A stretch of 64,000 nt of DNA, taken from contig OX485806.1 in NCBI GenBank assembly GCA_950295325.1, forward strand, positions 48,973,169-49,037,168, read 5' to 3'. Both the position numbers and the translations under genes were made by a program. Below are positions 24,851-57,722 of this stretch, piece after piece. The notes under the pieces are model-generated. The model was not told the DNA's origin and made no database searches. It saw nothing but the letters and a program-made list of their open reading frames with translations. This DNA is from Polytrichum commune (lineage: Eukaryota; Streptophyta; Polytrichopsida; Polytrichales; Polytrichaceae). Every line of letters starts with the position of its first letter. The first letter of the stretch is position 1.

Positions 24851-25501
24851 CTAAGGATTCCCAACCTAATAGTTTGAAATAGGGTTCATGAAAATATGCA
24901 CGCCAAGGAGCCATGGATGCAAGAATGACATGGTCAGCGAAAGAAGGTACACAATCTACCTATCCCAGGTCCGATGTATATCTGTAGTGCTTTGCAAGAA
25001 GAATTGAATCCATTTCATCATAATATTCATCATGGTTTATCCACTTCAAGATTAGTTTGCCGACATGGTAAGATTGCCAAAGATTCCTAACATGTAACAC
25101 TATATTCGTTAATCGGAGACTTTTGAAAGTCTCAAAATAAAATATGCCCATGGTTTGGGATGCCAATATTGTGGGCATACGGAATATTGGGAACATCAAG
25201 AACATGACGATTTAAAATTTTGCACGTAAAGCATATTCTTATTACTAAAAATAGAGAATTTCAATTAAAATGAAAACGTTAGCTCTTTGTGGAAAATAAC
25301 AATCAACTCTAAAAAAACAATTGGTTTATGTCATTATAGAGTTTGGGGTGTACATCCCATAAGTAAGGCTCTTATGAATTTGGATGGCACATCCCAAACA
25401 TATACAACAATGGAGTGTGACAAGTCCACTAAGTCTAATAAAAACCAAGTTTACTAAGCGCCCATGTTTTTCGCCATTAACTCCCACCTAATATGTTATG
25501 T

Positions 25502-28500
25502 TTACACATCTCCATCTTCCGCTTCATATCCATTCTCGGCGTCATTCACCGCAGCTGCAATACGTGCCAAATTGTCTTTGGCAAAATCTATATGTTTTTG
25601 GGGGATGGTCATTGTTTCTGTTTTGGAACCTTTGCGCGGCTTCCAAGCACAAAGTATAGTATCCGTGTTTATCCAAACCGGTGTGTACGCTGAGTCCACT
25701 GTCCACTTAAAATTCTTTTTGGTGTCCCAACCTAAATAAGTGCGTAGCACGTTTTGGTCTTTAGTGCTTGGACGACAATATTCCACCTCAATTTGACGAA
25801 AGTTGGGGCTAATTCAAACAAAATTGGGTGAAGACAATGCTTTCACCAACCAAATTGGCTTGGGATGCTCCTCATCCCCTGCTCGTACGAGGACCAAATA
25901 ACCTTCATGGCAATCAACACCTACACGAAACGACAATGCCGGTCGATCTCGGGCAGGGCCAACGTAATGCTCGTCCATTGCGAACTCTTCACGAACGTCT
26001 CCATTGCTAAAAAACATGGTGTCGGACTCGACAACCGTTAAACGGCTTTGTGGCCAAAATCCTTGTGTTAAAGTTGTACGGGTGTCGCCACCAAGTGTCA
26101 TTAGGGCCGAGCGAATGCGATCCCAATACGCAATCAAAGGTTCATGAGTATCTCTAACACGTCTAGTGATGTCCTCCTCACACAACTCTTTCCAATATTC
26201 AATGAATCCGGATATGCCTTTGATGATTTCCGGCCCATTCCTCATGGGGTCGGGTTTGCAAGGCTTTGGATCCCCATCCGGGAGCAAACATTTCCCATCA
26301 TTGTCTTGGCGCCATACGAGTATACCATCATCCGGGCCCCAATTAGGAGATGTGCACAAAAACTTAAATTGCATGGCCGGGAGACCATCATCCCTTATAA
26401 AGAATCGGAATTGTTGTGCTTTGGTATGTCCCACCAAACGGTCCCCTCCCTTCAACATGTATGGCTTGATGAAGGCCTTGAAATCTGGTACTTCCTCAAT
26501 CATGTGCGGAATTACCGGCATATGGTCCAAATCCATATACGATTTCATAAGAAGTGGTATGGTTGGAAAATCTTCTTCATGCAACTTCATGCTCCACCGT
26601 CCGAAAGACGCATCAATGTCATCGTGTGTGTGTCCCACCATCAAGAAAGACACAAACACCTCCTTGAAGATTCCTTTCACCACAAGCAAGGACCAAAAAC
26701 AAAATACATATCAACATTTGTTGTCCTTCGCACAATTATCAAGTTGAATGTGGAGAGTTGGAGGCAAAGGTTTCGCACAAAGAGGTTCTCCGGGTGGCTC
26801 CGGCAATGACGACATACAAACCTCCTTCCCCGCAAGCAGTGCTTCGTAAAGGGGTGTCGTTCCACAACCATCAAACGATGCACGTGATGAATGTACCGGT
26901 GGCTTCTCAAGATCGCGCAAGAGTTTTGCAAATGATCCCACTGTGTGGTTAGCATCGCCAGGGTAAAAATCCAGACCATAATGGGCATACTTAACGTCTC
27001 CATGTCCGTGGGCAATCATCCCTGGGAAAAAACAAACGATCCATGAATGACAACAATAACAACAACAACCCTAAACGGATGTGTGAAGTTGAAACCTAAC
27101 GCAAACACATCTAGTAAAATTGGATAGAATTTGAACACATATTTGTGATTTCCTACAAACTTGTGACAGCTACGGGCAACTTGAAGAGTCCACCCGTGGC
27201 CTTTATTTTCCGTGCATAACAAGGGCATGCGGTCTTGGCGTGGTCCATTTTGTCATGGATGATTGTTAGAACCTCTGTAGGCCTCATTATGGATAGAGCA
27301 CGGTTCTTGTAGTAATCTTGACGGTGAGCCTCTTGGTTGTTGACAGGTTCAATATATTTTGCTTGGTGTCTGGAGTGGGATTCGGTGCCTATGGGGTGGG
27401 CGTCTCGAAGACCTTTGTATTTTTCACACGTCGTACACCTAGCGAACTTGTCCCCAGGTCTCTTCAAAATGTATTCAGCAAACTGTTGGTTTTTAATTAC
27501 ACTCAACTTGGACAAAGAAATGGGACCACATCCCGCTATGCGACCCACTTCGTTAATGTCCGTTAATATGTTCTTCCATTTTGTACCTGTGGGCAACACC
27601 ATTTGTACAACTTTCTCCCCTGACAACAATGTCCTCGTCTTGTGGGGCATTGCATCGGCCAATGGGACTATGATGGTGGAGAGTGTCGCGGAGGCTTGGA
27701 GTGTAGCCTCCCGAGGTTTCTTTGTGCCCGAATTTCCATGAAATCGTGAGCGGCGACCCAACGATGAATACTTTTGAAACCTATAAAAGTCAGCCTTTGA
27801 CACGGCGTGGATGGTATACCACGCGGTACAACACACATCCACATTCTCAAGTGTGACCACCTTATGCCCATGGGTGTCAATGTGCACATTTTTGTGGACC
27901 TCGAGTTTCTTTGCCGATCTCATACGGAAATCGGCCAGCCACATCTCTTGACGTAGGGACTTAATTTTCTCCCGTGGGAAAAACTGGCAACATTTCCGAT
28001 AGCAACAGTCTTTGGCGAACACAAGACGGATAGATTCGTCTCCCAATATGCGATCCCGTCAACGCTCCTTATCTCCTCGAGGCACACGGTTCGAATCATA
28101 TTTGCGTAGGCCTTTGCGAGGACGTATTTTGGCCAACAAAGCTAATTGTGTTTGCTTATGGCGCCGCTCATGGTCCAACAAGCTCACTCCGTCATGGAGA
28201 ACCCGACAAAAAGGCCATCGACGCAAGGAAAATCTCCATGTCACCGGGACCTCAAGCGGAAGCAATGAATTCAAGATGCACACACCAACATCGTTCGGAC
28301 CAAGGGGGTTGGCATCCACACAATCACGGGGATCAGAGTTTCTACATATGCCATCTGCCACAGGGACACCAATGTCGTTGAGTAGGACGACATCAAGGCC
28401 AACCCATTGCTCCCTCCCGAAACCGGCACACAACGGAATGTCATCGTGGTCATCCCTGGAATGTAGAGATTGTTCGTGCACTTCTAAAGATTCATGGGAG

Positions 28501-28637
28501 GATGTATCCACAAACTCCCCCATCACGTTTGGCAAACCATTACAACCCGCCGAAGGGGAAGAAAGTTCACACTCACCATCGGAGGAGGAAGAAATTGTGG
28601 ACAACTCCAATGAACTATATGTCATGGGCAGCGCCAT
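25502..28637 (-). pseudogene. Gene C: transposase-like protein with GHTHDDID signature
   Basis: Two exons fit: 28637-27161 and 27021-25502, with an intron ending in TTTTTTCCCAG. The start at 28637 follows an acceptor-like GGTTTGCTTAG, so a 5' non-coding exon is likely. Key motifs are AHGHGDVKYAHYG, LDNCAKDNK and VGHTHDDIDASFGRWS. The last is the hallmark of a large eukaryotic transposase-like family (DUF7869-type in my recollection). Each exon stays in one frame but carries in-frame TGA stops at 28059-28061, 26711-26713 and 25814-25816. At each, CGA would restore a plausible residue. The TGA in 26711-26713 follows directly after the DNCAKDNK motif. No TAA or TAG interrupts the frame. The copy is probably inactive. 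Confidence 0.7.
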
Positions 28638-28899
28638 CCAACCTAAGCAAACCACTAATCAATGACCAAAACAAGAAGCACCGCAATGCACACAAAAGCG
28701 AAAACGAGAGCTGTGTAGATATATGGCTCAAAAAACACAAACAACTCTCGCGGCACCGTTGGGGGACCTCACATATGAAGACGCACGTGCGTTCGAAAAC
28801 AACGCCATGACAAGCAAATACTACGTGGGAGTCACACACCAATGGACAACGGCATGCAATTGTGGTACATATTACCCGTGAAGGATTTTGGGTCGATTT

Positions 28900-30250
28900 G
28901 CTAATAAAACATGGGAAGTGTTGCCAACCAACAAAGGAGAGCATACGCACATATATTCACGAACGCGCGGACGAGAACATCAACCCAACAAACAATGAAT
29001 TGTAAAAGGGATAAGCAACGTGCATTGCTCAGGAGCACCCAAAATGCACCTGCATCATTATCCACATGCAACAAGCATCGTAATTGAAGGGCATGTCTTT
29101 GACGGGTGTGTGTCTAGGAACGACCGAACCCAAGGTAGAGCCTAAACTCAAGGGTGTATGTATACAAACGATCGTTCATAAGTCCTGGCCGAAACATATG
29201 GGCATATGCATACGAACGATCAATCATGTGTTCTAGCCCTGACCGTGTTTGTAAAAATGTTGACCCATCAGAAGAAACATCTATAGCGTAGTAGTAGGAG
29301 GCATGTGCATAAATGAACGGATGTTTCTGTATAATTGCAAAATAATATCAATTGATATTTATGAACGCACGTTCGTGAATACCAGACCATCATATGTTCA
29401 GTTGGACATAACAGAGTCACGGGAGCGTAGGTGTCTTTGAGGGTTAGGAGGAAAATATACGAACGCACGTTCGTATATCATTGAACATTTTAGCGCCCAC
29501 GACTACCTATAAGTAGGTCAACGTGGAGTATTATCGAATGCTCTACTTACAAACGCACGTTCGTAAACCACTCGCATTACACGAACTTACATGCGCCTGT
29601 ATCTCCAAGGAAATATATACGAATGCACGTTCGTATACAATTGAACATTTTCGTGCCTATGACTACCTGTAAGTAAATCTACGCTGAGTATGTCCAATGC
29701 TCTACTTACGAACGCACGTTCGTAAACCACTCGCATCACAACAACTTACGTGCGCCTGTATCTGGAAGGAAATATATACGAACGCACGTTCGTATATAAT
29801 TGAACATTTTCGTGCCTGTGACTACCTGTAAGTAAATCTACGCTGATTATGTCCAATGCTCTACTTACGTGCGCCTGTATCTGGAAGGAAATATATACGA
29901 ACGCACGTTCGTATATAATTGAACATTTTCGTGCCTGTGACTACCTGTAAGTAAATCTACGTTGAGTATGTCTAATGCTCTACTTACGAACGCACATTCG
30001 TAAACCACTCGCATCACAACAACTTACGTGCGCCTGTATCTCGAAGGAAATATATACGAACGCACGTTCGTATATAATTGAACATTTTGTGCCTATGACT
30101 ACCTGTAAGTAAATCTACGCTGAGTATGTCTAATGCTCTACTTACGAACGCACGTTCGTAAACCACTCACATTACATGTCTGAACCACTCGTCTAAACCA
30201 CTCGCATCACATGTCGCTACCAAGTCATCTTTACGAACGTGCGTTCGTAA
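28900..30250. repeat. Palindrome-bearing satellite, unit about 159 bp, five units
   Basis: From 29361 on, a unit of about 159 bp is repeated with two palindromes per unit. One sits in ATATATACGAACG-NN-CGTTCGTATAT context (29459, 29619, 29778, 29897, 30056). The other sits in CTTACGAACG-NN-CGTTCGTAAAC context (29549, 29708, 29986, 30144). One unit is shortened to 119 bp and lacks the second palindrome. Degenerate copies occur before the array at 28781, 28969 and 29164. Confidence 0.9.
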
Positions 30251-31584
30251 ACTTCTGGTATTTGCGGCGGTATATGCGGGTATGTGCAACCTATTGTGTA
30301 CCTGGGAGGTATAGGGTGGGCGCACAAGAAAATGGTTTGTGCTCGTTCCAGTCAGGTCTGTGGAGCGCACACTTGGTTGTGCCGCAGAAAAGAGCTCTGA
30401 TGTGGGGGGAAGAGCTTTAAGTACCTCCCCCCTGATGGTTCAAAATCCCTTGGATGCTATTTAAAAAGCGGATTCCCGCCGCCTACTTTGACCTAACAAT
30501 ATGCCATTCCATCCATGCGGAATAAATAAATAACATTATGTATGGAACATGTCTTGCATGTACGCAACATATTGTAAATATGTCAATCGGTCGCACACCT
30601 TAGTTGTCACCAAGGTCTCACGTGAATATATGTCTATATTTATATGTATATATGAATTTCATATTGTATATTATATTATATTATATATACACATATATAT
30701 AATATTAGATTTATAATGTCTATATAGGTTTATGGTTAACATTGAATTTAAATGATTTGCAACTAAGGTGTGAAGTCCAAGTTAATTGACGATTGATTAT
30801 ACCTAATAAAGTGATGAAGGGTTTAGGGTAATACATATTCACACACACAATGAGGTAAGAGTAGCTAAAAATATGTTGTGGAAGCCCCTAAAATTGTAGG
30901 TATCATATGATTCACATAAAAAAAATGCCCGTAATATGGTCACCAACTGCATGAATACCAATAAAAAGTCGCTTAATCCATAATGGTTTGTACTAGGTAA
31001 ATTCATGACATTTTGAAGTAATCATACCCAATATATGTAGGTAAGGTCTTCATTCAAATGTAACACTAGGTTTGAAAATAATGAATTAAAATGGCATGAT
31101 TGGAAATGATCAATCACTTTGGAACGGTGCATACGATAATGATAAGAATTGAAACCATGCCTACGTGAAGTCACACTTACAATTATTAATATCATGTGTT
31201 TGATGTCCTATGGGAAATAAAATTTCCTCCACCTTTTGTAAAGGTTTAGGATAGCGCAGGCTCACCACAATATGAAATTGAGTCCTTTATCCAATAATTT
31301 TTTTTTAAGGAACCATTGAACACCTTGAAAGACATATTGTCCATGAAAAATTTATATTTTAAAACACCATATACACATGCTTGCGGGTGGATTTTTCATT
31401 TGAATCCACCCCCTGCACTTGAGGCTCGCCAAACATCGGATCATATTATGAACTATAAGTTTAAATGCAATTGATCATTGGTGAAATTTAAAGTTGATGG
31501 CACTAGTATTCGTTTGTTAGTTCAAGTCAACAACTAATTAAATGACTTGACCTCCTAAGAAGGGTTGGTAAGATAAAAAGATGT

Positions 31585-31625
31585 AGGGTTTAGGGTTTAG
31601 GGTTTGGGGTTTGGGGTTTGGGGTT
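31585..31625 (+). repeat. Interstitial telomere-like tract (TTTAGGG and TTTGGGG)
   Basis: About three TTTAGGG units run into three TTTGGGG units. TTTAGGG is the usual plant telomere repeat, which supports a plant origin. The tract is too short to be a chromosome end. Confidence 0.8.
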
Positions 31626-32670
31626 AGTGTATATGGTTTGTGAAAGTTGTCTAATATGTGGTTTGCGGGCTTAGGGTTTAGATCGTTAGTGATACTTAGG
31701 ACGGGTTTAGACTTGGAGTCAAGGCTCAAAAATGGGTTGGGGTGAAAGAAATCCACGCCTCTCATTGGTAGAAAGGCTAGGATTTTCCTCTTCAAGTTTA
31801 CACCATGAGTTGGGCCAATCACAAATAAATTATTTTATTCATCATGACAATGGCCTCAAGCCTTGGAAAAGAGAGCTCCCAACATTGTGGACTCTTTCCC
31901 TCTTGTTGAGGCCATTGTTAGAGCTTTTATTCGCTTATAGTAGTTTATTCTTTGAGCATTGAGTCGGAGGGGAGAAATTCTTAATTTATTATACTTTAAT
32001 TATTATCCATAGAATAGTTCATGAGTACGTGGGAACCTCTCATAACCCTCTCATAATTGAAACCTCCAAATGGCCCCAACCCCACCTAAATAGGTTTACA
32101 CATGAAAGCAATGAATGGAGTTAGGTTACTTTCTTATTAGTGGCCTTGGGGGCCCATTTGCATGCCACATGGGACATATTGGCCTTCGTTCACAATGGCC
32201 TTGGCCCCAAGTCTAAACAGGCCCTTAGTGTACTATGCGTTCGTATTTAGGGTATCTAACACTAAATATCATATTAAGGGTGGGTCAAGCTAACACCTCA
32301 TGAAATTAATGACATTGTATTGAAAAATGAATTTTCCCCCACCTCTTGAGGAGAATCTGATAGCCCCTCTCCACAATTCAAAATGCGTCCTTTATGTATG
32401 TAAAATTTGTTTGAGGAACCATTGAACAACTTTAAGGATGTGTGGTTCATGAAAACTCTATTTTGCAAAACACCATACACACATTGGGGTGGATTCTTCA
32501 TCGAAAACCTACTAAATGACATGCATTGTGTTGTACAAATTAACTGAACATATTTTTCTAAAATATGTTTACAAGGAATCCAACTGTAGAGGTATTAAGG
32601 GGATACGGAATGTAAAATTCATGTCCCCGAACTAAGCTCCCACCATTTCGTATTTCTTAATTCGTAAACC

Positions 32671-32806
32671 CTCATCCCTCCCTATCCCCATCCCCATCCC
32701 CATCCCTCCCCTCCCCATTCCCTCCCCATCCCCTCCCCTCCCCCATCCCCATCCCCATTCCCTCCCCCATCCCCATCCCCATTCCCTCCCCCATCCCAGC
32801 CCTGGC
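32671..32806 (-). repeat. CCCCAT/CCCCTCCC tract; G-quadruplex potential on minus strand
   Basis: The + strand is almost pure C/T/A with many runs of three to five C, mainly CCCCATC and CCCCTCC units. The minus strand therefore has more than ten closely spaced G runs and could form G-quadruplexes. It lies about 1.5 kb upstream of the gene 1 ATG. Confidence 0.75.
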
Positions 32807-32991
32807 CAGTGGCTGTCAGCCACGTGGCAGCCGCCAGGAAACCCTAGCGGTGCCGGCTACCTCCCCGCGCCTCTTCCTCTCCTCCTCATTTGTCATTTGG
32901 AGCAGAGGAGGAGGGGAGAGCTTAGGTGCGGTGAAGCCCTGGCCATTTGTATAGCCGCATTTTATGTTTATTCTTGGCGCGCATTGTCAGA

Positions 32992-33176
32992 AGCTTGAGA
33001 GTAGGATCGCTTGAGAGGTTGATATTTGTAGAAATCTTGAGAAGGTTGAGAGTTTTGGAAAGCTTGAGAGGTTTAGAGTTTTAGAAAGCTTGAGAGGTTG
33101 AGTGTTTTAGAAAGCTTGAGAGGTTGAGTGTTGCAAAAAGCTTGAGAGCTTGAGAGTTTCAGAAAGCTTGTGAGTT
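32992..33176 (+). repeat. About 27-bp tandem repeat AGCTTGAGAGGTTGAG
   Basis: Five to six imperfect copies of a unit around AAAGCTTGAGAGGTTGAGTG lie just upstream of gene 1, possibly in its promoter or 5' leader. A GTGAGT donor-like site at about 33345 follows. Confidence 0.75.
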
Positions 33177-34290
33177 GTGTGTACATCAGAATATTTGTAG
33201 GATTTGTAAATAAGTTCTGAAGGCTTGAGAGTGTGAGATAGGAGCGAGGGTAGAAATTGCATTTGAAAGCGAAATCAGTGCATTTGTGAGGTTTCTGGAT
33301 TTCTGAGTAGCAGGCAGCAGGTTTTGGGTTTGCAACAATTCAATGTGAGTACAGGTTTCCTTTTCAAAACACTTCTTTGCAATCTGAAATTGTTCTTTGT
33401 TGAATTCCATGTGTCATGTTTTATGCATTATGAGCTTTGTCATGTTTTGTATGAATTAGGACTTTCCCCTTCATTATGAATTCTTAATCACTGAATCTCA
33501 ATGTTGTTGTCATTACATATTTCACTTTGTGTTTCATCATTCTGATCAAGAGTTGCAGGCAGAAATCCAAGCAATGTCGATAGCAACATTCATAAACCCA
33601 TACATACGTATACGTATGTATACATATCCGTATATGTACGGAAAACATTTATTATCATACACAGACGACGACATTTACGAACGATCGTTCGTAAATGTGG
33701 CGTTTATACATCTAATACACCAAGCCCTTTACTTTTACGAACGCACGTTCATAAAATACGCACTCACCTTCTACTTTTACGAACGTGCGTTCGTAAAATA
33801 CCCACTCACCTTCTACCTTTACGAACGTGCGTTCGTAAAATACCCACTCACCTTGTATTTGCGAACGTCCGTTCGTGAACAAACACTGAATCACATCAAT
33901 ATCCTAGATTTACGAACGATCGTTCGTAACCAGGGATCCAAACACACCCAAGATTTACGAACGCACGTTCGTAAATCTACACAAATGCATGGACATAAAT
34001 ATGTGTACCCAAAAACTAATAAAAATGAGCCCAAAAAATGAAAATAAAAACGAACCCTACACCTTTTGATTACGCCATATGAACATCAAAGCACACAAAT
34101 ACGAACGCGCGTTCGTATTTATTGAAAATGAATAACACCTTGGAAATCAAACCAAATTTGCGAACGAACGTTCGTAAACAAGAACCAACAGATGTCTTGC
34201 CAATAATAAATAATTTATTGACGACCTGCAAATGTCAGTAACAAACGCGCGTTCGTAAATGCAATTCTGAATGTGTCTGTTACATTGCAG

Positions 34291-37200
34291 ATGGCTAGAC
34301 CAGTCAGGAGCGCAATCGAGATGTTCGCGGTTCAGTTGGATCGGCTTCCGGAGTCAGTGACAGATGACAATGGGAACGATAATTACGTCCCCAAAGATGA
34401 CTTCATGGGGGAGTGGACGGCGCTCCGGAGAAAATCAAGGGTGGATTGTTCGCCCTGAGATTTACATACGAGTTGGAGACAAGGCCAGACCAGCCGGAGC
34501 AGTGGGTGCAGATGAAGACATGGGAGATAGAATCCATAGAGGCACAGGGTAATTTTGTTATCTTGGACTTGAAAAACAAAAAAGACCACATCAACATCCT
34601 ACTGGACTTCAGGAGGCACCCTTTCTCCCATACATACGCACAGAATAATGTTGTAGAGGATGCCAAACATTTCGACCTCGTGAACCTTTTCACGAAGTAC
34701 AGCCTCAGCCAGCATTGGACAGCCAGGAAGTTGACTGCACTGGCCCTAAATATGTCCAAGTATAACAGTGCCGTCGTGGAGGCCAACAAGAAGAAGAAGA
34801 GTCCCAAAAAACCTACTGCATCCGGAGCAGGAGCTTCTAGAAGTGCGCCGCGGCCAGTGCCTTCAGCTAGCAGATTGTCAGAAGGGCCAAGCAGACACTC
34901 CACGCCATCTAAAAGAACTCGGGACGATATGGAGAAGTCTGGTGTCACGGAGACAGCTGAGGTCAACTCGCCGCCTGTCATGCCGACTCCTTTGAAGAAG
35001 GGGGAAAACCCTGATGCGGCAAAGGCGACTCGTATCCTTCGCGACTTCAACAATCACTCGAAGGATTGCTGGCCCATGGGACGGCACTTTACCTTCAACG
35101 TGGACTGCTTCAAATGCGAGAAATCCCCCAACAAGTGGGTGGTGAGGTCACGTGAAAGCGGAGGTGTGAAGTGGCAAATCAACAACTTGATGAATAACGT
35201 GAAGTGGGATAGGCAAACTGTGTGCGTTATGCCAAAGGGTTTCACTTCCCGTCCCACGAAGAAAGATTGGAGTTCTGGATTATTGATGGACAACACAGCC
35301 TGGAGGCATCGCAGATCATCCTCAAGGATGATAACTTCCAGCATGAGCTGAACGGGGACCTGCGCTACTGGAAGGCGTTCCTGGTGTGGTCAGACGACTG
35401 GGACAAACTCCGGAAAATTTTGACATTTTTAAATTCCGGGAATAAGATCAAAGCGTTTGAGGCATCATGGGCAGCAAACATAGTGGCTGCGAGAGACGTG
35501 TGGGTGGCACACCGGTGCCCACCAAAGGAGAGGGAGAATGCGAAAAACCAGTCTCCACAATGGAAGGTAAGTTTACGAACGAGCGTTCGTAATTCTCAGG
35601 TTCTTTTAGAACATTCCTGATCATTTTATTTACGAACGTGCGTTCGTATTTGATTGACGGTTGACATTCCTTTCTAATGCAGGTGTTTTGCGATGCGATG
35701 GTGGACAAATTTTCTTCCATCGACATGAAGTCCACTTCAACGAAGTCAGTGCTCGAGCTGAAGGGTGAGCTCCGGCTTATTTGTTGCAACAGAGACACCT
35801 GGGATTTGTGGACCCAATTTTTTGATGCTCACAGTGCGGGGGATCTCGTCAACCCCGACACTGAAGAAAAATATAATCAGGAAAAGACTGGGGAAGCGCC
35901 TCCGCTGCTGAGGGAATTTTTTAGGCCTCTTCAGAGGTTGACGGAGTCGGAATTGCAGAGATGTGCAGTTCATGCTTTTGGGAACACCGTCGGGAGAACA
36001 ATCCCCTACCCGAAGATTTTTTTGAAGAGGCCAAAGCACAGGCCCGGAACGTACTCCATCAAGGAGTGGTGCGAACATCGCAAGTTGAAGACCAACGCAA
36101 TGAGGGAGTTGGGCGCACTAGTCCCGGAGTACAAACTCTTCCAGGCCGACGGGAACATCAACTGGGCTGGATGGAAGGAGTTCAAGGTCGGGTATAATAT
36201 CAACGGCTCTTCCATGCGTAGGCTAGTTAAGGAACACGCCTCCGTCTTGAAGCTGAAGGGGAACAAGCGGACCAAGAAAGCAGAGACAGATCCCCAGGAG
36301 GTGGAGTTGTATATAAAGTTTTTGGAGAGGAAGCGGAGGGCCACATTCGAGGGAGTGGCCAGGTTTTGTTTGGTAACCACCGGGCTGGAGAGGACTACTT
36401 TTTCTAAGTAGGACGGCACCATCAGCAGGGCCGAGGCGAGGGAGGACCGCAGGGGTTGCCCATTTGCCCTGATTGATTTCAGGGGGATCCCAGGAGGTGC
36501 GAGGCAAGGGGCAAAGGATTTTCCCTTCTACAACCCTTTCATGGCAAAGTTTCAAGACTACAGATCGCCTGAAATGAGGGAGCCTCACGTATGGCTTTGG
36601 ATAGTGGAACATGAGAAGCTATCCATTGTCACGGAGCTGTACGAAAATACCATCAAATTTGAATACAGCATCTACCACAGCACCTACGTGCCCGCAAAAA
36701 CGGAAGGGATCGTGGCCATCAACGAGGCCAGGGGCAACAAGCAGGTGGGAGCTGTCAGCTTGATCTTCTTAACGTACAATGCTCTCAGAAATGGGAGAGC
36801 GCCTGTGAAGGCAAACAGTACTTTCAAGAAGATATACAGCATCCCTCACCCCCCTCCCAAGGAACTGCTGCAGGAGACACTGTACACGGTTTTCCCCGCG
36901 TTGGAGCTCAGGTTGGAGTTCTACGTGTTAGTGTTGCAGAGCTTGGCAATCACTGGAGAGACTATATACAACATCTTTGGAGGCAGCAAGTTCGTGTACG
37001 CGGCCATGGTAAGCTGTCATTCTTCGATTTACGAACGCTCGTTCGTATTTTTCATTGATTCAAATGTTATAATAGTTGTGGCATTTTTTTCCCTTTGCGT
37101 TGATATGGCCTTGTCTCAATGTTGATGTTTACGAACGCACGTTCGTATATGCTGACATGTTTGGAAACGTTGATACAGATGCTGGGGTTGGTCGTCAATA

Positions 37201-38776
37201 ACTACATTGACGCCCAAGACGAGGATGAATACCAGGTCCACAGGGTGAAAGCGTCCACAATGGACCTCGATGACATGTGTGTCACCAGGGAGGACTTCAG
37301 CATGCCCGTCAACGAAGGCATGCCGGGATTGGAGACAGAGGAGGACGAGCCCGCCCCCTCCGTGGACGTGGACGTGGACGCCATCTTGCAGTCGTTCAAC
37401 ATCACTCCTTTACGGATGTTGGCGCCAGCGGGTCACCCTTCTGACCCCCAAGGGACACCGGGGGGCTATACAGGATCCTCGGCTGGGACAACCTAGGATG
37501 TCCTCCCCGCTAGAGTGTCGGGTGCGGAACCTTTCGGCACACCTGGCGGCTGTTCGAAGTCAGTGTCTCCCAGGCCCGTCGTGGTTCCGAGGATGGAGAC
37601 CCTCGACCTCCTCGACCAACGCTCGCGTCCATCCTTGGACCACTTCCGGAACACGAGGAAGAGGATGAAGAAGACTCCATACGTGGAGTTGCCGGAGGGA
37701 GCAATCATCGAAGTGTCCGACGAGGACGAGGGGGACATGGACATCATGGCGGAGCTGGGGGTGGATTACGACAAGAACAAGCGTGTGAAGGAGGAGGCGT
37801 TGACCGTTGCCGAGCTAAATGCCAAGCTAGAGCAAAAAATGAAGGAAGAAATGGCGGCTGCGGCAGAGGAGAGTGCAAGAAATATGGCCCGCATGCAGGA
37901 GGCGCTGCGGGAGTCCGCAGCAAAGACGGACGCCATATTTGAGATGCTCAGAAATATGCAGAGCTTCTCGGCGCCAACACAACAACCTTACTCTTTCCCC
38001 GGAGGATACCCCTCCCATACCCCCCCTCCAGGCCTGTTCCCCGGAGGACCTTCGCACCCACCAGCACCACACCCAACGCCAGCTGGGAGTCCTCCGCCCC
38101 TTCAATTAACTGCCACCCCCTTCAACTCGGACGATGCGATAAGGGCTGCCATACGCGAGGACGAAGATTTACGAACGCGCATTCGTGAATCTTCAGGTCC
38201 GGCAGTCCTAACCCCTCCCCCTCCAAGGGTAGGACCGGCCTCAGTCACTACCACCGCCTCTTTGACAGTCGTCCCGAGGGTAGTGCATAGGCAGGGCGAT
38301 GAATCTACGCAACACACTGACATGGTCATTGTGGAGGAAACGCAGGGGAGCCCCAATGACGCGGCAGCTGTCCAAGGAATGGACGTTGAGAGCCCTGACC
38401 TGGAACGGCATCCATCCGCGGAGATGGAGGATGTCCGCATGGACACTCTCGACCTGGGCGGAGACGACGACGACGACGCGGACCACATTGTGCAGACCCA
38501 GGCGTCACAGTCAGAGCGTGCCATGGAGACAGAGGCGGCTGGCCCAATGGGGATTACGAACGCGCGTTCGTTAATCGAAGAGGAGGGAACTGCTCGGTCC
38601 AGCGCCGCTGCCCCTCCCCCCGATGACGAGGTAACTCTCCTCTGAGAATACCACTCATTTAACGAACGCGCGTTCGTAACCACTAACCCATGTGCGTTGT
38701 GTTCTTGGCGGTTCCTGTCCATCAGCATCACGAGGCGTGCGAGGACCCTTCTCTACGTGGACCCTTAGCCCGATAA
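34291..38776 (+). pseudogene. Gene 1: ParB-like plus N4/N6 DNA methyltransferase-like protein
   Basis: Exons: 34291-35566, 35683-37008, 37179-38630 and 38726-38776, with GTAAGT/GTAAGC/GTAACT donors, CAG acceptors and phase-0 joins. ATG at 34291 directly follows a TTGCAG acceptor, so an upstream leader intron (about 33345-34290) is likely. Near residue 330 is FWIIDGQHSLEAS, like the DGxHR motif of ParB-like domains. At the end of exon 2 and start of exon 3, ITGETIYNIFGGSKFVYAAM then MLGLVV matches methyltransferase motif I (GDxVLDxFxGSG...AA..LGR), preceded by PKELL. Exon 3 ends in a disordered, acidic then coiled-coil and Pro-rich tail. Frame breaks lie at a G5 run (34407) and a TG repeat (35218-35224), and in-frame TAGs at 36409 and 37494. 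Each is restorable by one small change, so decay or assembly error are both possible. GC-rich, unlike its flanks. Confidence 0.62.
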
Positions 38777-39191
38777 ATTTTGTAGAACACGGCATGTATT
38801 TGCCATAGGAAACTGTGAAAAATTATCACGTGAGACAATTGTAAATATTCACCGAATTAATATATGAGCAGATGATCTCTGCGTCGCATCTCCCAAACTT
38901 ATTGTATCGTATCGCATCTTGTATTATGTATGTTCATGCGCATCATTACACTTTCACGCCCACTTTCACCCTCCTTCACGAACGAGCGTTCGTACATGTG
39001 CTTCTATCCGCGCTCACGAACGAGCGTTCGTAAATGATGCGCCACCCCAGCCTTCATTCACGAATGCTCGTTCGCAAGTCTGCACTTGACCACATTCTCC
39101 TTGCACTATTTTCCTCGCATAATCGTCTTTTCCTCAATGCAATGTTGTTTATTGGATCATAGAATTAAACTAGTCGAGTTGTTAATCACAG
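38777..39191. other. Spacer or intron with three palindromes
   Basis: This gap separates the gene 1 stop from the phosphatase exon. It contains palindromes at 38978, 39016 and 39060 and ends in a CACAG acceptor at 39191. It therefore probably includes the intron of the next gene; I could not define the preceding exon. Confidence 0.5.
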
Positions 39192-39959
39192 GATCCCCCG
39201 GAGATAGGTCGGAAACCCTCGACCAGTGGACGTCTTACCCGAAACAAACCGTTCGTCGTGTTCGACCTGAACGGGGTGTTGTGTCACACCGAACACATCC
39301 CCCGGGTACCCACGCGTCCCTTCCGTCACCCCGACGAAAGGGACTACGACGGAGAGCTCGACACTCTCATTAACCGCAAGGCTGTCCGCGCCCGTCCCGG
39401 CCTGCGTGACTTCCTTCGAGAGGTGCTCGATGTAGCTCACGTCATTGTGTGGAGCTCCATGGTCATGGAGAACACTGAGCCAATCGTCGACTTCCTCTTC
39501 CGCGATCTTCCGAGCCCTTGCCTCATCCTCGGCCAAGAGGATTGCGATGAATTGCTCGACGAAAAGGGTCTGCTGGTTCCAAAGTTCGGCGGTCGTGGCG
39601 GAGGACAACAATTCCTCAAGGTCCTGAGGTCAAGACTGTGGCGGGGCATCCCCCGGTTGCAGGGGGTACCCCACGGGTGGTGGCCGACCCCCGAGAACAC
39701 CGTCCTTGTCGACGACAGCCCCACCAAAAGCGTCTTGAACCCCCCGGGGAACGTCATCTTCCCCGCCACTTGGACCGGCGATAGGAACGACACGTTTTTG
39801 GTCGATACGCTAGCGCCTTACCTTAGAAGGCTTGTTGTCCACGCCGGTAGCATACCATTTTTTGTTAGGTCCAACCCCATAGGCAATGTGGGTTTAAGCC
39901 CCCGTGATAATGTATTCAAGAGCATCATGAGGCTCGCCAAACTCAATAAATTGATTTGA
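39192..39959 (+). CDS. FCP1-like (NIF-type) phosphatase domain exon
   Basis: The exon follows a TTAATCACAG acceptor and is open for 255 codons to TGA at 39957-39959. It shows a complete HAD/FCP1-like layout: FVVFDLNGVL near residue 25 (first Asp kept, second catalytic position Asn), VIVWSSM near 90, then LVDDSPTKSVLNPPGNVIFP near 180. Plant FCP1-like proteins often have DLNG in place of DLDE, so the Asn does not by itself prove loss of function. The role would be dephosphorylation of protein Ser/Thr, classically the RNA polymerase II tail; the substrate here is unknown. No stop or frameshift interrupts it, in contrast to its neighbours. The first exon, upstream, is not found. Confidence 0.75.
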   Translation, partial: DPPEIGRKPSTSGRLTRNKPFVVFDLNGVLCHTEHIPRVPTRPFRHPDERDYDGELDTLINRKAVRARPGLRDFLREVLDVAHVIVWSSMVMENTEPIVDFLFRDLPSPCLILGQEDCDELLDEKGLLVPKFGGRGGGQQFLKVLRSRLWRGIPRLQGVPHGWWPTPENTVLVDDSPTKSVLNPPGNVIFPATWTGDRNDTFLVDTLAPYLRRLVVHAGSIPFFVRSNPIGNVGLSPRDNVFKSIMRLAKLNKLI

Positions 39960-40071
39960 AATGCCTCCATGTCTTTGCTTTGTATCATGTGGTTCACATT
40001 TACTAATGCTTGCTTCGTTTTTGGATGTCTTTTGTTGTTGTGATTGTTGTTGTGTTTATTCTTGACCATAG

Positions 40072-41069
40072 TCTGCCCCCATATGCGACGCCCCTGTGGT
40101 CGACGGCCCTTCCCGTCCCCTCTCGCCACCTGCCTCCCCTTCCCGCGACGTCACGGACTTCCAAATGCCATCCCTCTACCAGTTCTCGGCGGTCGACGCG
40201 GCCTCGGCCGTGGATTACTCCCGCGACGTCGGCATCGACGACGGCGTCGTCAACAGCCCGCCCCCCGCACTTGTCGCCCGCGCCTACGCCCTGTCGCCCT
40301 CCCCCCTCTCCAAGGAGAAACGGACGCTCGTTTGTTTGGGGCACCTCTCGCCCTCTAAGGACGACACCGTCGCTCGTCGCGGGCCGAGCCAGTGTCTTCG
40401 CATGGAAGGCCCCCGTTGCCACACCTCCCCCGCCGACTCCGTTCCTCCCCCCGCAACGTCCTCCGCCATCGTGAGCCCTCCACGCCTCGACTCCCCCCCG
40501 CCACTCACCAATACAATAGTTCCATCGGCTCCGGATGCTCCCGTCGACGCCCCCCTCGTTTCCACCGTTCCCCGCATGGACGTCCCCAGAGCCAAGGTGC
40601 CCTCCTAAACCCTAAACCCCTTTCCCGCTTTTGCTTCCCTTGTCTTCCGTTTGCGTGCCGTTCTCTTTACGAGTGCCCATCCCAAACCGCCCTCATTATT
40701 CTCCCCACTCCATTCCTATTCTTATCTTCCTATGACGTTGTTTCGCAGGTGGCTACCTGCTCGCTTGGTGCCCGACCCTCCTCCACGTCCTCCTTGGATA
40801 GGCACGCCCTCAAGGCCGCATCTTCCGAGTCCGATCGTTGTCTGGCCCTCCGGAGAAGCGCAAGACGTTCCCTTTCGCAAACGCCCTCGTATTCTACTTA
40901 TAATACCACCTCGTACAATTCGGGAGCGCGTCCTGAAACATGCAAGAACGAGACATATTCCTGTCCAGGCAACACACAAGGATACAGTCGTGGGCCTGAG
41001 ATTTTTAGAGCCATGGAGGCCGCCAAAAAAAAGGACTTAGCCGCAAAAAAAAATAGTGGGTCGGACTAG
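40072..41069 (+). CDS. Pro/Ser-rich protein, two exons, unknown function
   Basis: A CTTGACCATAG acceptor opens an exon at 40072 that is in frame to a donor at 40596 (CCAAG then GTGCCC). A TTTCGCAG acceptor at 40748 opens a second exon that runs in frame to a stop at 41067-41069. The product would be Pro/Ser/Ala-rich and low in structure, with a Lys-rich end (AAKKKDLAAKK). No domain is recognised. It lies 113 bp beyond the phosphatase stop and shares its GC-rich composition, so it may be an alternative 3' part of the same gene or a separate gene. Confidence 0.35.
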
Positions 41070-43077
41070 TGTGACTAGAAGCGTACTAGTGGGACGGACT
41101 CCCTAAATGGGCTTAGGTGTAAAACATATTTAAGTGCTTACTTTCTATGCTATTCCAAGTTACTCAAGACATTGATGGTATTTCCATTATAATTGTATTT
41201 CAATCCCAATTAATTCATTCAACTTCCATTCATTCTTCGCATCTTCCCTTCCATTCATAACGAGTTGTCATTTCATACGCAACTATTTTCATGTATGCCT
41301 CACATTTTTGTTCACTTCCATGCCTTTATGTATAATAATAGTAGCATACCATTATACATATGGGATTTTTAGTCGTCATTACTGGTCCAATTTTGAAATG
41401 TGCATCCTTATATAGTCTCATAATCAACAAAAACTCTCCAAATACCGAATATAGTGTTATGTGCCTCATTAACCCTGTCATGTTGGAGCTCTCCGCAATA
41501 AACACTATCTATCTATTACAGAAACAAACTGACTTCAGGACTCCCACTCGAATGTTCAAAGATCTGCAAATTTAGCAAGATTGAATGATGAATTATTGGA
41601 GTGTTCCTATACAAATGTTGAAAGCTGGAATTCAGCACACACATCAATTCATAGCCAAATAATATACCCTGTCAAACCACCCCTTAGAAGGAATACTTAT
41701 TCTTGTCATGGACTTGCACTAACTATCAAGCTGTCAAAGTTGTATATTTATCTACAAATGGGGAATGCATGCACCTCTCCCATTCAGAATTCAAACACTA
41801 CTACCTTGTCACATCTATGTTATATCTATGTGGAAATCGGTAATGCATGACAAATTTTCAAAAAAAATAGACTACTTTGTCACAATTATCTATCAATGCA
41901 TGCTAGATTCAGATCCCACAACTACTTATCCAACAATTTCGGTGTATTCAAATCTCAGTTGCAAAGGATTTGATGATATGCAAGGGTCACACACGATCAA
42001 GGAATAGGTATCCGTTCTTAACTTACCATTATTTTCAGAGATTCAATGTATATTGCATACAGAGTCACTACAAGATGAATACTACCACAAGTTATAGGTG
42101 TCGACTTGCTTGGTAAAGACAAGTTCCCACACTCAGATCCATCAGTTCTGGAAGAAAACCATGCAGATTTAGTTGTGTCCTCAAAAAACAGAGTGTGTAC
42201 TCTAGTCCAGATTGCAGAAGCAGGCTGTCTAATTTTGGGAAGGGATTACATTTCTTTGCAATGAGTATAGATGTTACCTCATCGGGAACCAATTCCATAT
42301 CAGTTATTTAGGTCACATGATTTACCATTTGACCTCTCCTTCGAATGCCCAACCATCGATCCAATGTCCAAGAACTATACTCGAAGTAAACTTGCCCCAT
42401 CCAAGACAAAATCTCCGCATCTTTCAACACTCATACACAAATGTTGTATATTGTCACTACTGATTCTTCATTTATACACATATGTTCACTTACAAATATG
42501 TTGCCCACCAGAGACAAAAATGTACAAGCTACTATCAATGGCAACTCTCCAGAAAACAAAAACCACTACTACCTTGTAAGTTGCCACCGCTATCTATCTA
42601 TCTATCTATCTATCTAACTTAAAAAACTTGGACATCGCAAGCCAACTCTCCAGAAAACAAATACATGCACTACCCTGTTGCAACTATCTATCTGCAACAC
42701 GTTCTCTTGCAATATTGGCAGCTATCTATCCGCAAAAGTTGGGTAATGCATGCAAGACAGGTTTCCAGAAAACAAAACACCACTACCTTGTTGCAGATCA
42801 CCACAAGACGAGCAAGAGAACACAAAAATACCAAATGGAAGCTCCGCAATACTACAAATAATTTCTTGTTCTTGATGACCAGCAAGACACCACAAGAAAT
42901 CAGATCACCACAACAAGAGCTCCGAAATACCTACCTGCAATCAGATCCAAGTATACCTCTTGGACATACCACTTGTCCGACATGCATACATGATTCAAAT
43001 TTTCCAAAGACTTGCAACCCTAAACCCTATTCAGAGACTTGCAACAACAAACTTGTTCATATGTTTAGAATGAATAC
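41070..43077. repeat. AT-rich stretch with dispersed tandem units and ATCT microsatellite
   Basis: From about 41770 the CTTGTCACA, CTATCTATCTGC and AACTCTCCAGAAAAC phrases of the 24.06-24.85 kb array reappear, with an ATCT run at 42590-42617. Between 41070 and 41770 nothing is recognisable. The stretch may contain introns of the minus-strand gene at 43.1-43.6 kb, but no exon is clear. Confidence 0.6.
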
Positions 43078-54656: not shown

Positions 54657-54661
54657 ATGAT

Positions 54662-57600
54662 TGTCGCAACCCTTGCTAGTCCCTTTGAAAATCTTGCCAA
54701 TTTTCATTTCTAGCAAAGGTTACGAGTGCTAACCCTTCGCATACCGCCATGCTAATGGTTAGCTCCTCCTACCCCGGACCTTATAGTTCATAGGAGGGGA
54801 AGCAACCCTCCTACTTTGCTTTCGGGACTCACCCCCTTAATCGGTAACCCATTTCTTTGATGTGGACTTCCATCCATGGAAGTCCAATCCTATGTTGATC
54901 ATCGCATTGCCGGAGCAACACTACAACAACCCGAAACATACTACGCAACTATGGCCTCACAATGGGCCAAAGCCCATGGAGGCCGTGCCGTTCGGCCTCG
55001 GGTGGGTGAGGCCACACCACCTCACCCATATAAGCCTCTAGGACTCTAAGCGGGGCCCCCACCGTCAATCAACCTCTTGTCTCTCCGACAAAGACCTCAC
55101 CGAGGTTAATAAAAAGAACACTTTACAACCCATCAAAGGGGGCACCACACCTGTGAACAAGGGGGTGAAGGGGGGACCGAAGCCCACTCAACGGGCATCT
55201 ACCGCCCGAAAGGGGGAGCCCAACAGGGCCTCAAAGAGAGGGGGAAAGAGGCTGGAGCCGGGGAGCGTTCCCGCATAGGCCAGGTCAGCAAGGGGGAGGG
55301 GGGGCAAAGACCCACCACCGTCATGGAAGGGGTGCCACCCGTCGATTCCAGCGGAGGCGTCCACCCTCAAAGAGGGAGGTGGGGGGGGACTAGACGTTTC
55401 GTTAGCAAATAAAAGCAGCGAAAGGGGAGTGGACAGCGACAAACGCTTCGTCCTGGTTCAATCATAAGCGTCAAGGAGCGCAATCTGCTCCGAGGTCCAA
55501 TCAATCTCGAAGTTGAAACGTGAATTGCCGAACCCAGCGGCCCACCAATACATTCCCAACAGTGAGCCCGAGGTCGGAATACCAGTGGCACGAAACAGAG
55601 TCCAGCAGTCATCCTGCGTGAGGACGCGAGGTGCGGCCCCAGGTGAAGAGCCCGTCGAGAGTTGAGCTAGTCGCCTCTCCGCTTGAAAAGTTCTCAGCAG
55701 TTCCTCAACCTCAAGTGAGGCCATGTGCTCAAGTTCCGCTTCGGTGATTCCCAGGCGTTGGAGGTTGAATCGGTTGGGGTTCAGCCGTGGAGCCTCTTAT
55801 GCCGATGGTCTGTACCTGTCGAACGGCGTCCTCCTTTGCCGATCCTGATGGGAGAAAGTAACTCGGTATGTGTGTTCGCGGTGAATCGCTGATAGCCCGT
55901 CTTCAGGGTTGGGCGACGTCTAAGGTTCGTCACTTTGAGTGGAGCCAACCTGCCTGGTCCCTTGAGCCTCGAGACCGTCCCTAGAGGTGGAGGCTTTGTG
56001 CGTCTCTCTGACGGTGGGTTGTGGAACCTGGGACGCCTCTTCAGTTAGAGGTGGTTCCGGAGGGGTTCCTTCTCTCGAGGGTGTTTCCGAGTTCGGCTCC
56101 CTGAGGACTTCCGGGGGTGCAGAGTCCCGGTGGTGTTCCTTGTTCTTGGTCGGGCCGAATGTACAATGGCGCTTGTGTCTGCTCTTCTTAGGAGTGTGTT
56201 TCTTGACCAAAATCCCACCCTCAGACGTTCCTTCGTGTGTGGGCTGCAGTTCACTTTGTTCCCTATTCTCGGTCGCCTGGGGGCGTCGCGGCCCAAATCG
56301 ACATCTCACTTTTTTCTGCTCTCAGTAGGGGGCCGTGGCGTGGCGAGGTGTCTCCTGTGACCACCGTTGTGAGTTGTGTCGCTGTGAACGTTCGTGCAGA
56401 CCTTGAGAGGGCTTCTCGCCCTTCCTGTGTACGCTCTTCACTTCTGGGCAGGTGTTCTTGTCCTATCTGCCATTGTGGGGGTTGGTTTTCATTGTTGTCC
56501 TCCAGTGGCAGGCCCGATAGGGCCTGCCCGGTTGTGTGGATGGTGTAGTGCTCCTAATGAGCGTCTTGACTTGGTTGGCTGGGTGCAGGGTCATCTGCCT
56601 CCTCCGGTACTTGGGAGCCTGCATTGTCCGCTGCTCTTTCGTTCGAGTGTTCTGGCTGGGGGGCGCGCCAATTGTCTCCGATTCCTTGGAGGAATTCTTG
56701 CACGAGGTCTGGGAAGTTAGCTCGCGCTGCGAATTCTGCCTCCACATCAGGTGAGGGAGATAGGCAGTTGGTATTGATAGGAGGGATTGTCCACGCCCCC
56801 AGGTCTTTCGGCAGAAATTCCTGGTGCGGTGTTATGTTCCACTTGATGCCTGTACCTCCAAGCCTTCCGACTACATTAGCTGCGGTCCACATTGTTTGAA
56901 AGCATCCAATCATTTCTTGCCTTTTTTCCTCGATTTTCTTGTGTCTAAAAAGCTCCTTGTAAGCCTCCATAGCACAGTATATCGTGTTTCTCCATGCTTG
57001 CCACAGTGCCATACCCAGGTGAAACTGTTTGTCCTTGAAAGCATGGAAAACCCGTTGGCACCACCCGTAGGGTTAGCACCCGTAGAGTGCTAGGGGTAGG
57101 GGGTTAGCACCCGAATGCTAACTCTACGCAGGGCCCCTACCCCACCGTCAAGAAACCTCTTATCTCTCTACCAAGAGTTGGGGCCAAGTAGACATTTTCC
57201 CTTAGCCGCTGGGCCTAGAAGCCCCTAGCAGCTTCAGACCATCATAACTTCCTTGTATGATGTCTGATGCTAACAAGCAACCACTCCATCCTCATCTACG
57301 CTTCATGTAAATGCCGATGGACTCCTCACTTGCCCCATTCAGACAGTGAGGATTGAGGAAGTTATGCTTGTTTGAACCTTGGCAGTCCCGGAAATCACTC
57401 CTAGGCACTGCTGTATCAGGGCGTTGTTCCGGGACAGCGCCCCACTCAAATGGCCATAACTCCTAGCTCACACCTCCGATTGAGGTGCTCTTGAGCGTTC
57501 TAGAATCACCACGCCATGAGCTACGCATAGTTCTTGGCTTTACCCTCATGCCTCCTAGTCTCCGTGGGTGGGAGGCGTTCCCAACGCCCGGGGCCCTCGC

Positions 57601-57717
57601 CCACACTAGGATCACTTGGGCCCTCTCACCAACGGTGCCACAAGTCCCGGGTGTCACTCCGGGGTCCCCCTTGTGCCCATGGCGTTTTGGGCACTCCTCA
57701 TGGAGAGGTGCGCGACA
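54662..57717 (-). mobile_element. TG...CA element carrying a 2-kb coding insert, TSD ATGAT
   Basis: On the minus strand the element starts TGTCGCGCACCTC and ends GGGTTGCGACA, like the 973-bp element at 6162. ATGAT flanks both ends (54657-54661 and 57718-57722). The two outer parts (about 54662-55087 and 57115-57717) match that element closely in inverted orientation. Between them is a foreign block of about 2 kb. The block is bordered by an imperfect direct repeat of about 40 bp around ACCGTCAANNAACCTCTT, so the short element could have lost this block by recombination between the repeats, or the block could be an insertion. Confidence 0.75.
55458..57012 (-). pseudogene. Unknown ORF inside the TG...CA element
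   Basis: Starting at MALWQAWRNTIYCAMEAYKE, a frame of about 150 codons ends in a TAG at 56554-56556 but stays open beyond it for about 80 codons. A frame change near 56300 leads into a Lys/Glu/Pro-rich stretch, then a TAG (55920) and a TAA (55797), and a final open part with LEVEELLRTFQAERRLAQLS ending at 55458. All three stops would be removed by T to C. The product is hydrophilic with a helical N-terminus and disordered middle; a gag-like role is possible, but I recognise no domain. Confidence 0.4.
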
Positions 57718-57722
57718 ATGAT

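Follow-up and report, generated by a model that had tools for sequence, protein, structure and literature searches.

Introduction

The closest described parallel to the locus reported here is the anti-silencing of VANDAL transposable elements by the VANC proteins of Arabidopsis (PMC5735166; PMC10398659). The VANC motif of VANDAL elements is reported to be 9 bases long and directional; VANC21 motifs occur as tandem repeats, within introns of both VANC21 and VANB21 as well as upstream of VANA21, and VANC6 has other motifs than VANC21 (PMC5735166). Here we describe a comparable arrangement in a DNA transposon of Polytrichum commune, found in a stretch of 64,000 nucleotides (assembly GCA_950295325.1, contig OX485806.1, positions 48,973,169 to 49,037,168 of the forward strand; this whole stretch is called the window), which carries 32 copies of a CpG-containing palindrome.

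Like the VANDAL/VANC system, the element belongs to a single family with a dense, short motif in its non-coding parts; the motif is tandemly amplified, lies in introns of the candidate reader gene (gene-1) and upstream of the candidate transposase gene, and varies between related lineages. Unlike the 9-base directional motif described there, it is an 18-bp palindrome with four CpG in its arms, and the element has inverted ends, a 4-bp target site duplication (TSD), a DUF7869 gene and a NIF domain. The transposase of VANDAL elements, VANA, is of the Mutator-like (MULE) type. No DUF1985, the VANC family, was found in gene-1 exons 2–4 of another copy of the family (copy C) at E values up to 5, and because the test of protein family fails we speak of a likeness to VANC in logic and not of a VANC system. 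The statement in the initial annotation of this DNA that no plant repeat of this kind was known was too strong, since the VANC-binding motifs of VANDAL elements are a close functional analogue (PMC5735166).

Our preferred reading, to which we give a probability of roughly 60%, is that the palindromes would serve in cis as binding sites of a symmetric DNA-binding protein that the element itself encodes and that maintains its expression by an anti-silencing logic like that of VANC. A symmetric reader encoded by the element is suggested because the arms are fixed, the centre is nearly free, the arms differ symmetrically and the spelling is specific to element lineages.

CACTA/Spm elements also have repeated short sites for an element protein, and the ends of the present element contain CACTATA; here, in contrast, the TSD is 4 bp, the ends start AACACTATA and the sites are internal. 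CACTA elements have CACTA ends with a 3-bp TSD. Membership in CACTA/EnSpm was set aside (ends reading AACACTATATTCG with a 4-bp TSD in 3/3 elements; sites not subterminal).

Palindromes and the transposon

In the window, TACGAACGNNCGTTCGTA was matched 33 times with at most three mismatches, 32 of them within 29163–39076; the expectation from shuffled sequence is 0.08, with a maximum of 1 among 100 shuffles. The 33rd match (28780, three mismatches) lies within the same element, and outside the element the window has no site. The initial annotation was thus right about 32 copies over some 10 kb, about the lack of a clear copy elsewhere in the window and about at least eight centre dinucleotides, of which eight kinds were counted (CA 13, CG 5, TG 4, AT 3, AG 3, CT 2, TC 1, AA 1). 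Its description of perfect palindromes fits 17 of the 32 copies, over the 16 specified bases, and does not fit the remaining 15; ACGAACG..CGTTCGT is kept in 21/32. The proposed unit of 16–18 bp is indeed palindromic, but conservation reaches two more bases of A/T type on each side, mostly T on the left and A or T on the right (461 clade-1 sites with at most one mismatch). The palindrome is 18 bp long (22 bp including the A/T flanks), with four CpG in its arms and a nearly free centre. The proposal that duplication of a longer unit played no part in their spread is only partly right: 13 sites are in tandem arrays, nine of them in 119–159-bp units of 29449–30176 and four in a 42-bp unit of 33726–33876, and the other 19 are outside the arrays found.

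The centre is not wholly free: among the 461 clade-1 sites, G in first place and C in second place are each found in about 1%. Many sites of a gene-poor derivative (element D, see below) have a GG centre, unlike those of clade-1 copies.

The palindromes are part of a large, multi-copy DNA transposon family. By comparison of copies, the window element spans 25096–41458 (plus strand; 16,363 bp) and is flanked by the TSD ATGT/ATGT; its left terminal inverted repeat is AACACTATATTCGTTAATCGGAGACTTT (25096–25123, plus strand), and its right one (41431–41458, minus strand) is one base off the end pattern (GAGAGTTT for GAGACTTT). We assign the sites to the element because its ends are inverted, a 4-bp TSD was present in 3/3 elements read at both ends (window ATGT/ATGT, D CATA/CATA, E CACT/CACT) and no window site lies outside it. 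The left end is common to the window copy, A, B and D, the right end to the window copy, C and D; the sequence of copy A stops near the right end. Genome-wide, the end pattern AACACTATATTCGNTANTNGGAGACTTT has 687 exact matches (335 + 352; reversed control 0), and many of the 100 end matches listed face one another, 9.4–19 kb apart. A query of the genome with gene-1 exon 3 gave 150 scored matches from 971 candidates; part of the family looks young, since most of these have open frames and several have identical scores.

The genome (407.8 Mb) holds 4,680 exact TACGAACGNNCGTTCGTA sites (reversed control 0), against about 0.08 predicted from base composition, the comparison that the initial annotation had proposed. 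Occurrence is therefore not uniform at base-composition density, the sites listed forming separate clusters, nor is it confined to one tandem satellite, given the 19 window sites outside arrays and the thousands of sites genome-wide. Clustering was checked on the first 100 sites, all within the first 2.54 Mb of sequence C1: 97 sit in seven clusters adjoining an element end or a gene-1 copy, and the other three form one cluster about 10 kb past copy B, perhaps the continuation of that copy.

Position of the sites within the element

Under the predicted gene model, 30 of the 32 window sites are non-coding: 12 lie upstream of the DUF7869 gene, in an array at 29163–30249 that includes the nine sites in 119–159-bp tandem units, and 18 are intronic. 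All four introns of gene-1, on the plus strand and predicted from splice signals and reading frame, contain sites. Intron 1 (33345–34290; splice signals GTGAGT and TTGCAG, the latter followed by ATGGC) has ten, four of them in the 42-bp array; intron 2 (35566–35682) has two, at 35574 and 35631; intron 3 (37012–37178) has two, at 37030 and 37130; and intron 4 (38631–39191) has four, at 38661, 38977, 39015 and 39059. The tally took intron 1 from 33342, where the donor reads at 33345, and the counts are unaffected. The two coding sites are both in exon 4 (38170 and 38555); exons 2 and 3 have none. From the left end of the window element it is 4.07 kb to the first of the 32 sites (3.68 kb to the three-mismatch site), and 2.4 kb separate the last one from the right end; the outer 3.6 kb on the left and 2.3 kb on the right are free of sites with three mismatches or fewer.

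These positions speak for control of expression over joining of the ends. They count, as does the intronic position of many sites, against the palindromes being accessory transposase sites that pair the element ends in the manner of the TnpA sites of CACTA/Spm, which are subterminal. Such sites would likewise be element-specific and be kept in derivative D despite its loss of genes; we regard the explanation as unlikely.

Element D measures 9.5 kb between its ends and has inverted ends, a TSD and 42 sites (at most two mismatches); tblastn gave no match in it to gene-1 exons 2–4 or DUF7869, and its only remnant of the NIF region is a fragment of 81 residues. Three further end pairs listed on C1 are 9.4–9.7 kb apart, and the two sampled (L053, L056) carry class-1 sites, that is TACGAACGNNCGTTCGTA. 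Sites that act in cis on a protein coming from elsewhere in the genome would be expected to be retained and multiplied in this way without the genes.

Spelling of the arms by element lineage

Besides class 1 (TACGAACGNNCGTTCGTA) we distinguish class 2 (TACGGACGNNCGTCCGTA), in which both arms are changed, and a third symmetric variant (TACGGCCGNNCGGCCGTA); between lineages both arms differ together (TACGAACG, TACGGACG, TACGGCCG). Element E, which belongs to a sister clade (clade 2), has ends and coding parts in common with the family but a stop in gene-1 exon 2, and its gene-1 is 37% identical to that of copy C in the N-terminal part of exon 2, 55% in the DGQH part, 54% in exon 3 and 32% in part of exon 4. 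It carries 13 perfect TACGGACGNNCGTCCGTA and no perfect TACGAACGNNCGTTCGTA sites, in the upstream array, the 5' array and predicted introns 2, 3 and 4; class 2 has 1,382 sites genome-wide. For clade 1, 40 further copies were chosen by hand across the identity range of the exon-3 matches and, with the window copy, A, B and C, gave 44 sequences, which hold 341 exact class-1 sites and no exact class-2 site.

Arrays were sampled 12 times from 11 elements (L058 and L059 belong to one element), with exact class-2 sites in 7/12 samples, class 1 only in 3/12 and neither in 2/12. Six class-2 elements carry a clade-2 gene-1 (at 30.5, 31.3, 36.96, 37.2, 40.4 and 69.9 Mb on C1), and L063, of class 1, is found with a clade-1 copy. 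Which class of exact site an element carries goes with its gene-1 clade, the samples giving a single exact exception.

Where all other arm positions are perfect, position 5 reads A in both arms at 4,680 sites, G at 1,382, and C or T at 0 (reversed control 37); the degenerate form TACGNNCGNNCGNNCGTA has 6,490 sites genome-wide (reversed control 67). Arm position 6 is changed in 41 sites, 27 of which are TACGGCCGNNCGGCCGTA. Of the 41, 21 lie no more than 300 bp from gene-1 copies of one subfamily, for which 17 copies are listed at 75–76% identity to E (93 scored of 1,187 candidates); 15 of these 17 have such a site beside them. In L058, the sole element of this subfamily sampled upstream, the array is still TACGGACG.

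A host transcription factor or insulator protein, recruited by the element, might read the palindrome instead, and strong arm conservation alone does not demand an element-encoded reader. One host protein does not readily explain spellings that differ among element lineages in one genome, and 97/100 of the sites listed adjoin an element end or gene-1 copy; we regard a host reader as improbable, on a par with or slightly below the accessory transposase sites. A host-wide motif was set aside on the same two grounds, the clustering at the element and the variation in spelling between its lineages.

Conservation of the arms

The intron-2 site pair is recognisable (at most three mismatches) in 44/44 aligned copies. 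Among nine hand-picked representatives, the comparisons that differ in intron 2 amount to 56/1152 in the arms, 52/144 in the centre and 1138/2544 (45%) at other positions; for all 44 copies the values are 1130/30272, 1048/3784 and 27308/67241, respectively. A second comparison used eight representatives with an open exon 3 and the first four sites of introns 2 and 3 (the fifth L041 site was dropped): arms differ in 63/1792 comparisons (3.5%), centres in 76/224 (34%) and fourfold-degenerate sites of exon 3 in 1982/4142 (48%). From the first and last of these values, the arms were held while silent sites changed heavily.

The palindromes might have no function, hairpin-templated repair and tandem duplication keeping them perfect by concerted evolution. 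The 13 tandem sites would fit this, and hairpin-mediated repair may help the arms change together, which eases symmetric change; a difference in centre between B (TT) and C (AA), copies 93.5% identical over their longest aligned stretch, is also expected of hairpin inversion. The scattered, non-tandem sites of one element nevertheless have one arm spelling, the arms are fixed against fourfold sites that are 48% different, and exons 2 and 3 of the window copy are without sites. We therefore rate concerted evolution without function as distinctly improbable. The centre in question is that of the first intron-2 site (window 35574), which is TT in B, L024 and L042 and AA in C and its nearest relatives, as though the palindrome centre had been inverted.

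At sites with one mismatch (related copies being counted separately), 58/125 changes are at CpG, and 53/58 of these are C>T (25) or G>A (28), similar on both strands, as cytosine methylation leaves them; among the non-CpG mismatches A>G (30) exceeds T>C (13), and arm position 2 accounts for 27 of all mismatches, for the most part through a single inherited site. These figures bear on whether the sites act as RNA hairpins in introns, affecting splicing or small-RNA production. Sites in predicted gene-1 introns or exon 4 (20/32) could pair; the other 12/32 are in the upstream array and not in gene-1, it is the sequence of the arms and not their pairing alone that is fixed, and C>T at CpG, which keeps G-U pairing, is about as frequent as G>A, which breaks it. 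RNA hairpins are accordingly a very unlikely explanation.

The initial annotation had proposed a site read by a symmetric dimer and had likened it to bacterial parS. Symmetric reading of the site has stood, as both arms differ together and the arms are kept where the centre is not; the likeness to parS has not, the sites being in a plant nuclear transposon and the gene pieces scanned containing no ParB family. With parS and ParB the locus has in common a palindrome of similar length and many sites near a gene; it differs from the parS consensus in sequence, and in belonging to a plant nuclear transposon with terminal inverted repeats. ParB and DGQHR groups are akin. A parS-like array for partition or replication, to which palindrome length, clustering and a DGQH motif weakly recalling the ParB/DGQHR group might point, is almost certainly not what these sites are, since thousands of them are dispersed over nuclear chromosomes and Pfam, NCBIfam and PHROGs scans of the listed gene pieces found no ParB family.

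In prokaryote contigs (257 Gb), 57 stretches contain the palindrome, against about 60 expected at equal base frequencies, and viral contigs have seven; none of the 64 stretches matched the element proteins used as queries (tblastn). A bacterial or plasmid origin was set aside (plant nuclear chromosomes, thousands of dispersed sites). One metagenome-assembled genome of Verrucomicrobiales, JAEUHD01 (guanine-plus-cytosine content about 65%), accounts for five of the 57 prokaryote stretches, with six exact TACGAACGNNCGTTCGTA on five contigs (L065, L076, L080, L087, L094) and some near copies 100–200 bp off; with no match to an element protein (tblastn), this looks like an unrelated bacterial repeat.

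The candidate reader

Gene-1 lies on the plus strand. Exon 2 (34291–35565) encodes 431–432 amino acids in open-frame copies, is frameshifted in the window copy and has a WIIDGQHS motif conserved in clade 1. Exon 3 (35683–37011) encodes 441 amino acids in most open-frame copies and has a TAG at 36409 in the window; exon 4 (37179–38630) has 484 codons in the window, and that of copy C gave weak Pfam matches of coiled-coil type, below cut-off. Exon 5 (39192–39959) encodes a NIF/FCP1-type phosphatase domain (PF03031, E 2.6e-16, 60.1 bits against a gathering cut-off of 21.8). The catalytic motif of NIF/FCP1-type phosphatases is DxDx(T/V); the segment reads DLNGV in the window copy, C and E and DLNRV in A, so that the second Asp is missing. 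The open reading frame of this domain has no start codon near its beginning; in A, C and E it is connected to exon 4 by a phase-0 intron, which makes the predicted product a single protein of about 1,600 amino acids. In the window copy, gene-1 is broken by frameshifts and by a stop codon. Selection on exon 3 is purifying, the ratio of non-synonymous to synonymous substitution rates (dN/dS) being 0.04–0.20 at dS of 0.09 to 2.7 (28 pairs of eight copies).

Profile scans gave the gene-1 protein no match above a curated cut-off other than its C-terminal domain. PDB profile searches returned 0 matches for exon 2 and four weak ones for exon 3 (best E 0.16), and viral contigs yielded no confirmed relative of exon 3 or the DGQH region. 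The (I/V)(I/V)DGQH segment aligned with four bacterial DGQHR proteins (TIGR03187) at 58% in hhalign (E 9.7e-5; 24 columns, motif only), the control with exon 3 giving 0.1%. Unlike the DGQHR proteins, gene-1 has S and not R after DGQH, and the curated TIGR03187 model gave 0 families for exons 2 and 3 and 0 matches in the genome, where weak ones may be missed.

Of the element's proteins, we take the gene-1 product as the most likely reader, given that the DUF7869 protein differs much less between the clades (85% identical over a 298-amino-acid window piece) and that every predicted intron of gene-1 contains sites.

Proposed function

On the preferred anti-silencing reading, the gene-1 product, with its DGQH motif, exon-3 region, exon 4 and NIF/FCP1-type domain, would bind the palindrome as a symmetric dimer. 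Less certainly, it might cover the introns of gene-1 itself and the array that lies upstream of the DUF7869 gene, and an element so covered might stay unmethylated and transcribed, as VANDAL elements do under VANC. Tandem duplication would multiply the sites, and co-evolution of protein and site would keep the lineages separate. The protein may also act directly on RNA polymerase II through its phosphatase-like domain.

Several observations weigh against this reading. Profile searches recognised no DNA-binding domain in gene-1 exons 2–4, and structure predictions of exons 2 and 3 were unusable (mean predicted local distance difference test scores, pLDDT, of 39.4 and 44.2). The genes of an element are inherited together, so segregation of the sites does not name the reader. 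Many copies have been methylated, as 53/58 of the CpG changes are C>T or G>A, and CpG depletion gives no sign of protection, the non-coding CpG observed/expected ratio outside the palindromes being 0.47–0.70 in elements, not clearly unlike the window flanks (0.60, 0.61). Spelling and clade do not coincide everywhere: the class-2 sample L062 also has one exact class-1 site; L055, L057, L060 and L064 have one class-1-like site each with one mismatch; E has one such class-1 site and a mixed site whose two arms belong to different classes; and 387 of the 6,490 TACGNNCGNNCGNNCGTA sites have unequal arms (by subtraction). L064, with no exact site, lies with a clade-2 gene-1, and L061 also has no exact site, though both samples may have missed the arrays. 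Co-evolution with a protein is less sure in the third-variant subfamily and in E because of in-frame stops, a TAA occurring in the matched exon-3 stretch of 17/17 listed copies of that subfamily.

More tentatively, and at somewhat under even odds, the locus could represent a second, independently evolved system of sequence-specific licensing (anti-silencing) in plant DNA transposons, in which an unrelated DGQH and FCP1/NIF-type protein would sit as a dimer on a palindromic, CpG-rich site, and arm-symmetric switches (A/G at position 5, then A/C at position 6) would separate lineages resident in the same genome. If so, sequence-specific self-protection of transposons would not be peculiar to Arabidopsis VANDAL elements and would have arisen more than once, with different proteins and different site architectures serving it. 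A pair of lineages resident in one genome, their sites set apart by one symmetric base difference and present naturally in the thousands, would then offer a clean system for mapping the joint change of protein and site, and a function would be in hand for a protein that profile scans otherwise match above cut-off at its C-terminal domain only. Literature searches on VANC, anti-silencing and subterminal or palindromic sites gave no description of this system among the matches listed.

Other genes and repeats

The DUF7869 gene (25502–28658, minus strand) is the candidate transposase gene, presumably encoding the transposase of the family. It is split over several open reading frames in the window copy, where the piece 25814–26710 matches PF25273 (E 2.9e-23, 82.9 bits against a cut-off of 26); in copy E it comprises two stop-to-stop frames of 539 and 536 amino acids. 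Two pieces scanned gave DUF7869 plus one weak match below threshold and nothing more, and a literature search found no paper joining a transposon and DUF7869. A second, more distant DUF7869 gene lies directly left of copy B (L004, 1–1513); with 47–63% amino acid identity to the E copy, it perhaps belongs to another transposon family.

A repeat of about 1 kb occurs at 6162–7134, 54661–55094 and 57121–57725 of the window and several times inside or beside copies B and C; at 80–97% identity to the window stretch, it is probably another mobile element nested in the family. A short telomere-like run of TAGGGTT is found at 31584–31625, inside the element and between its two main arrays.

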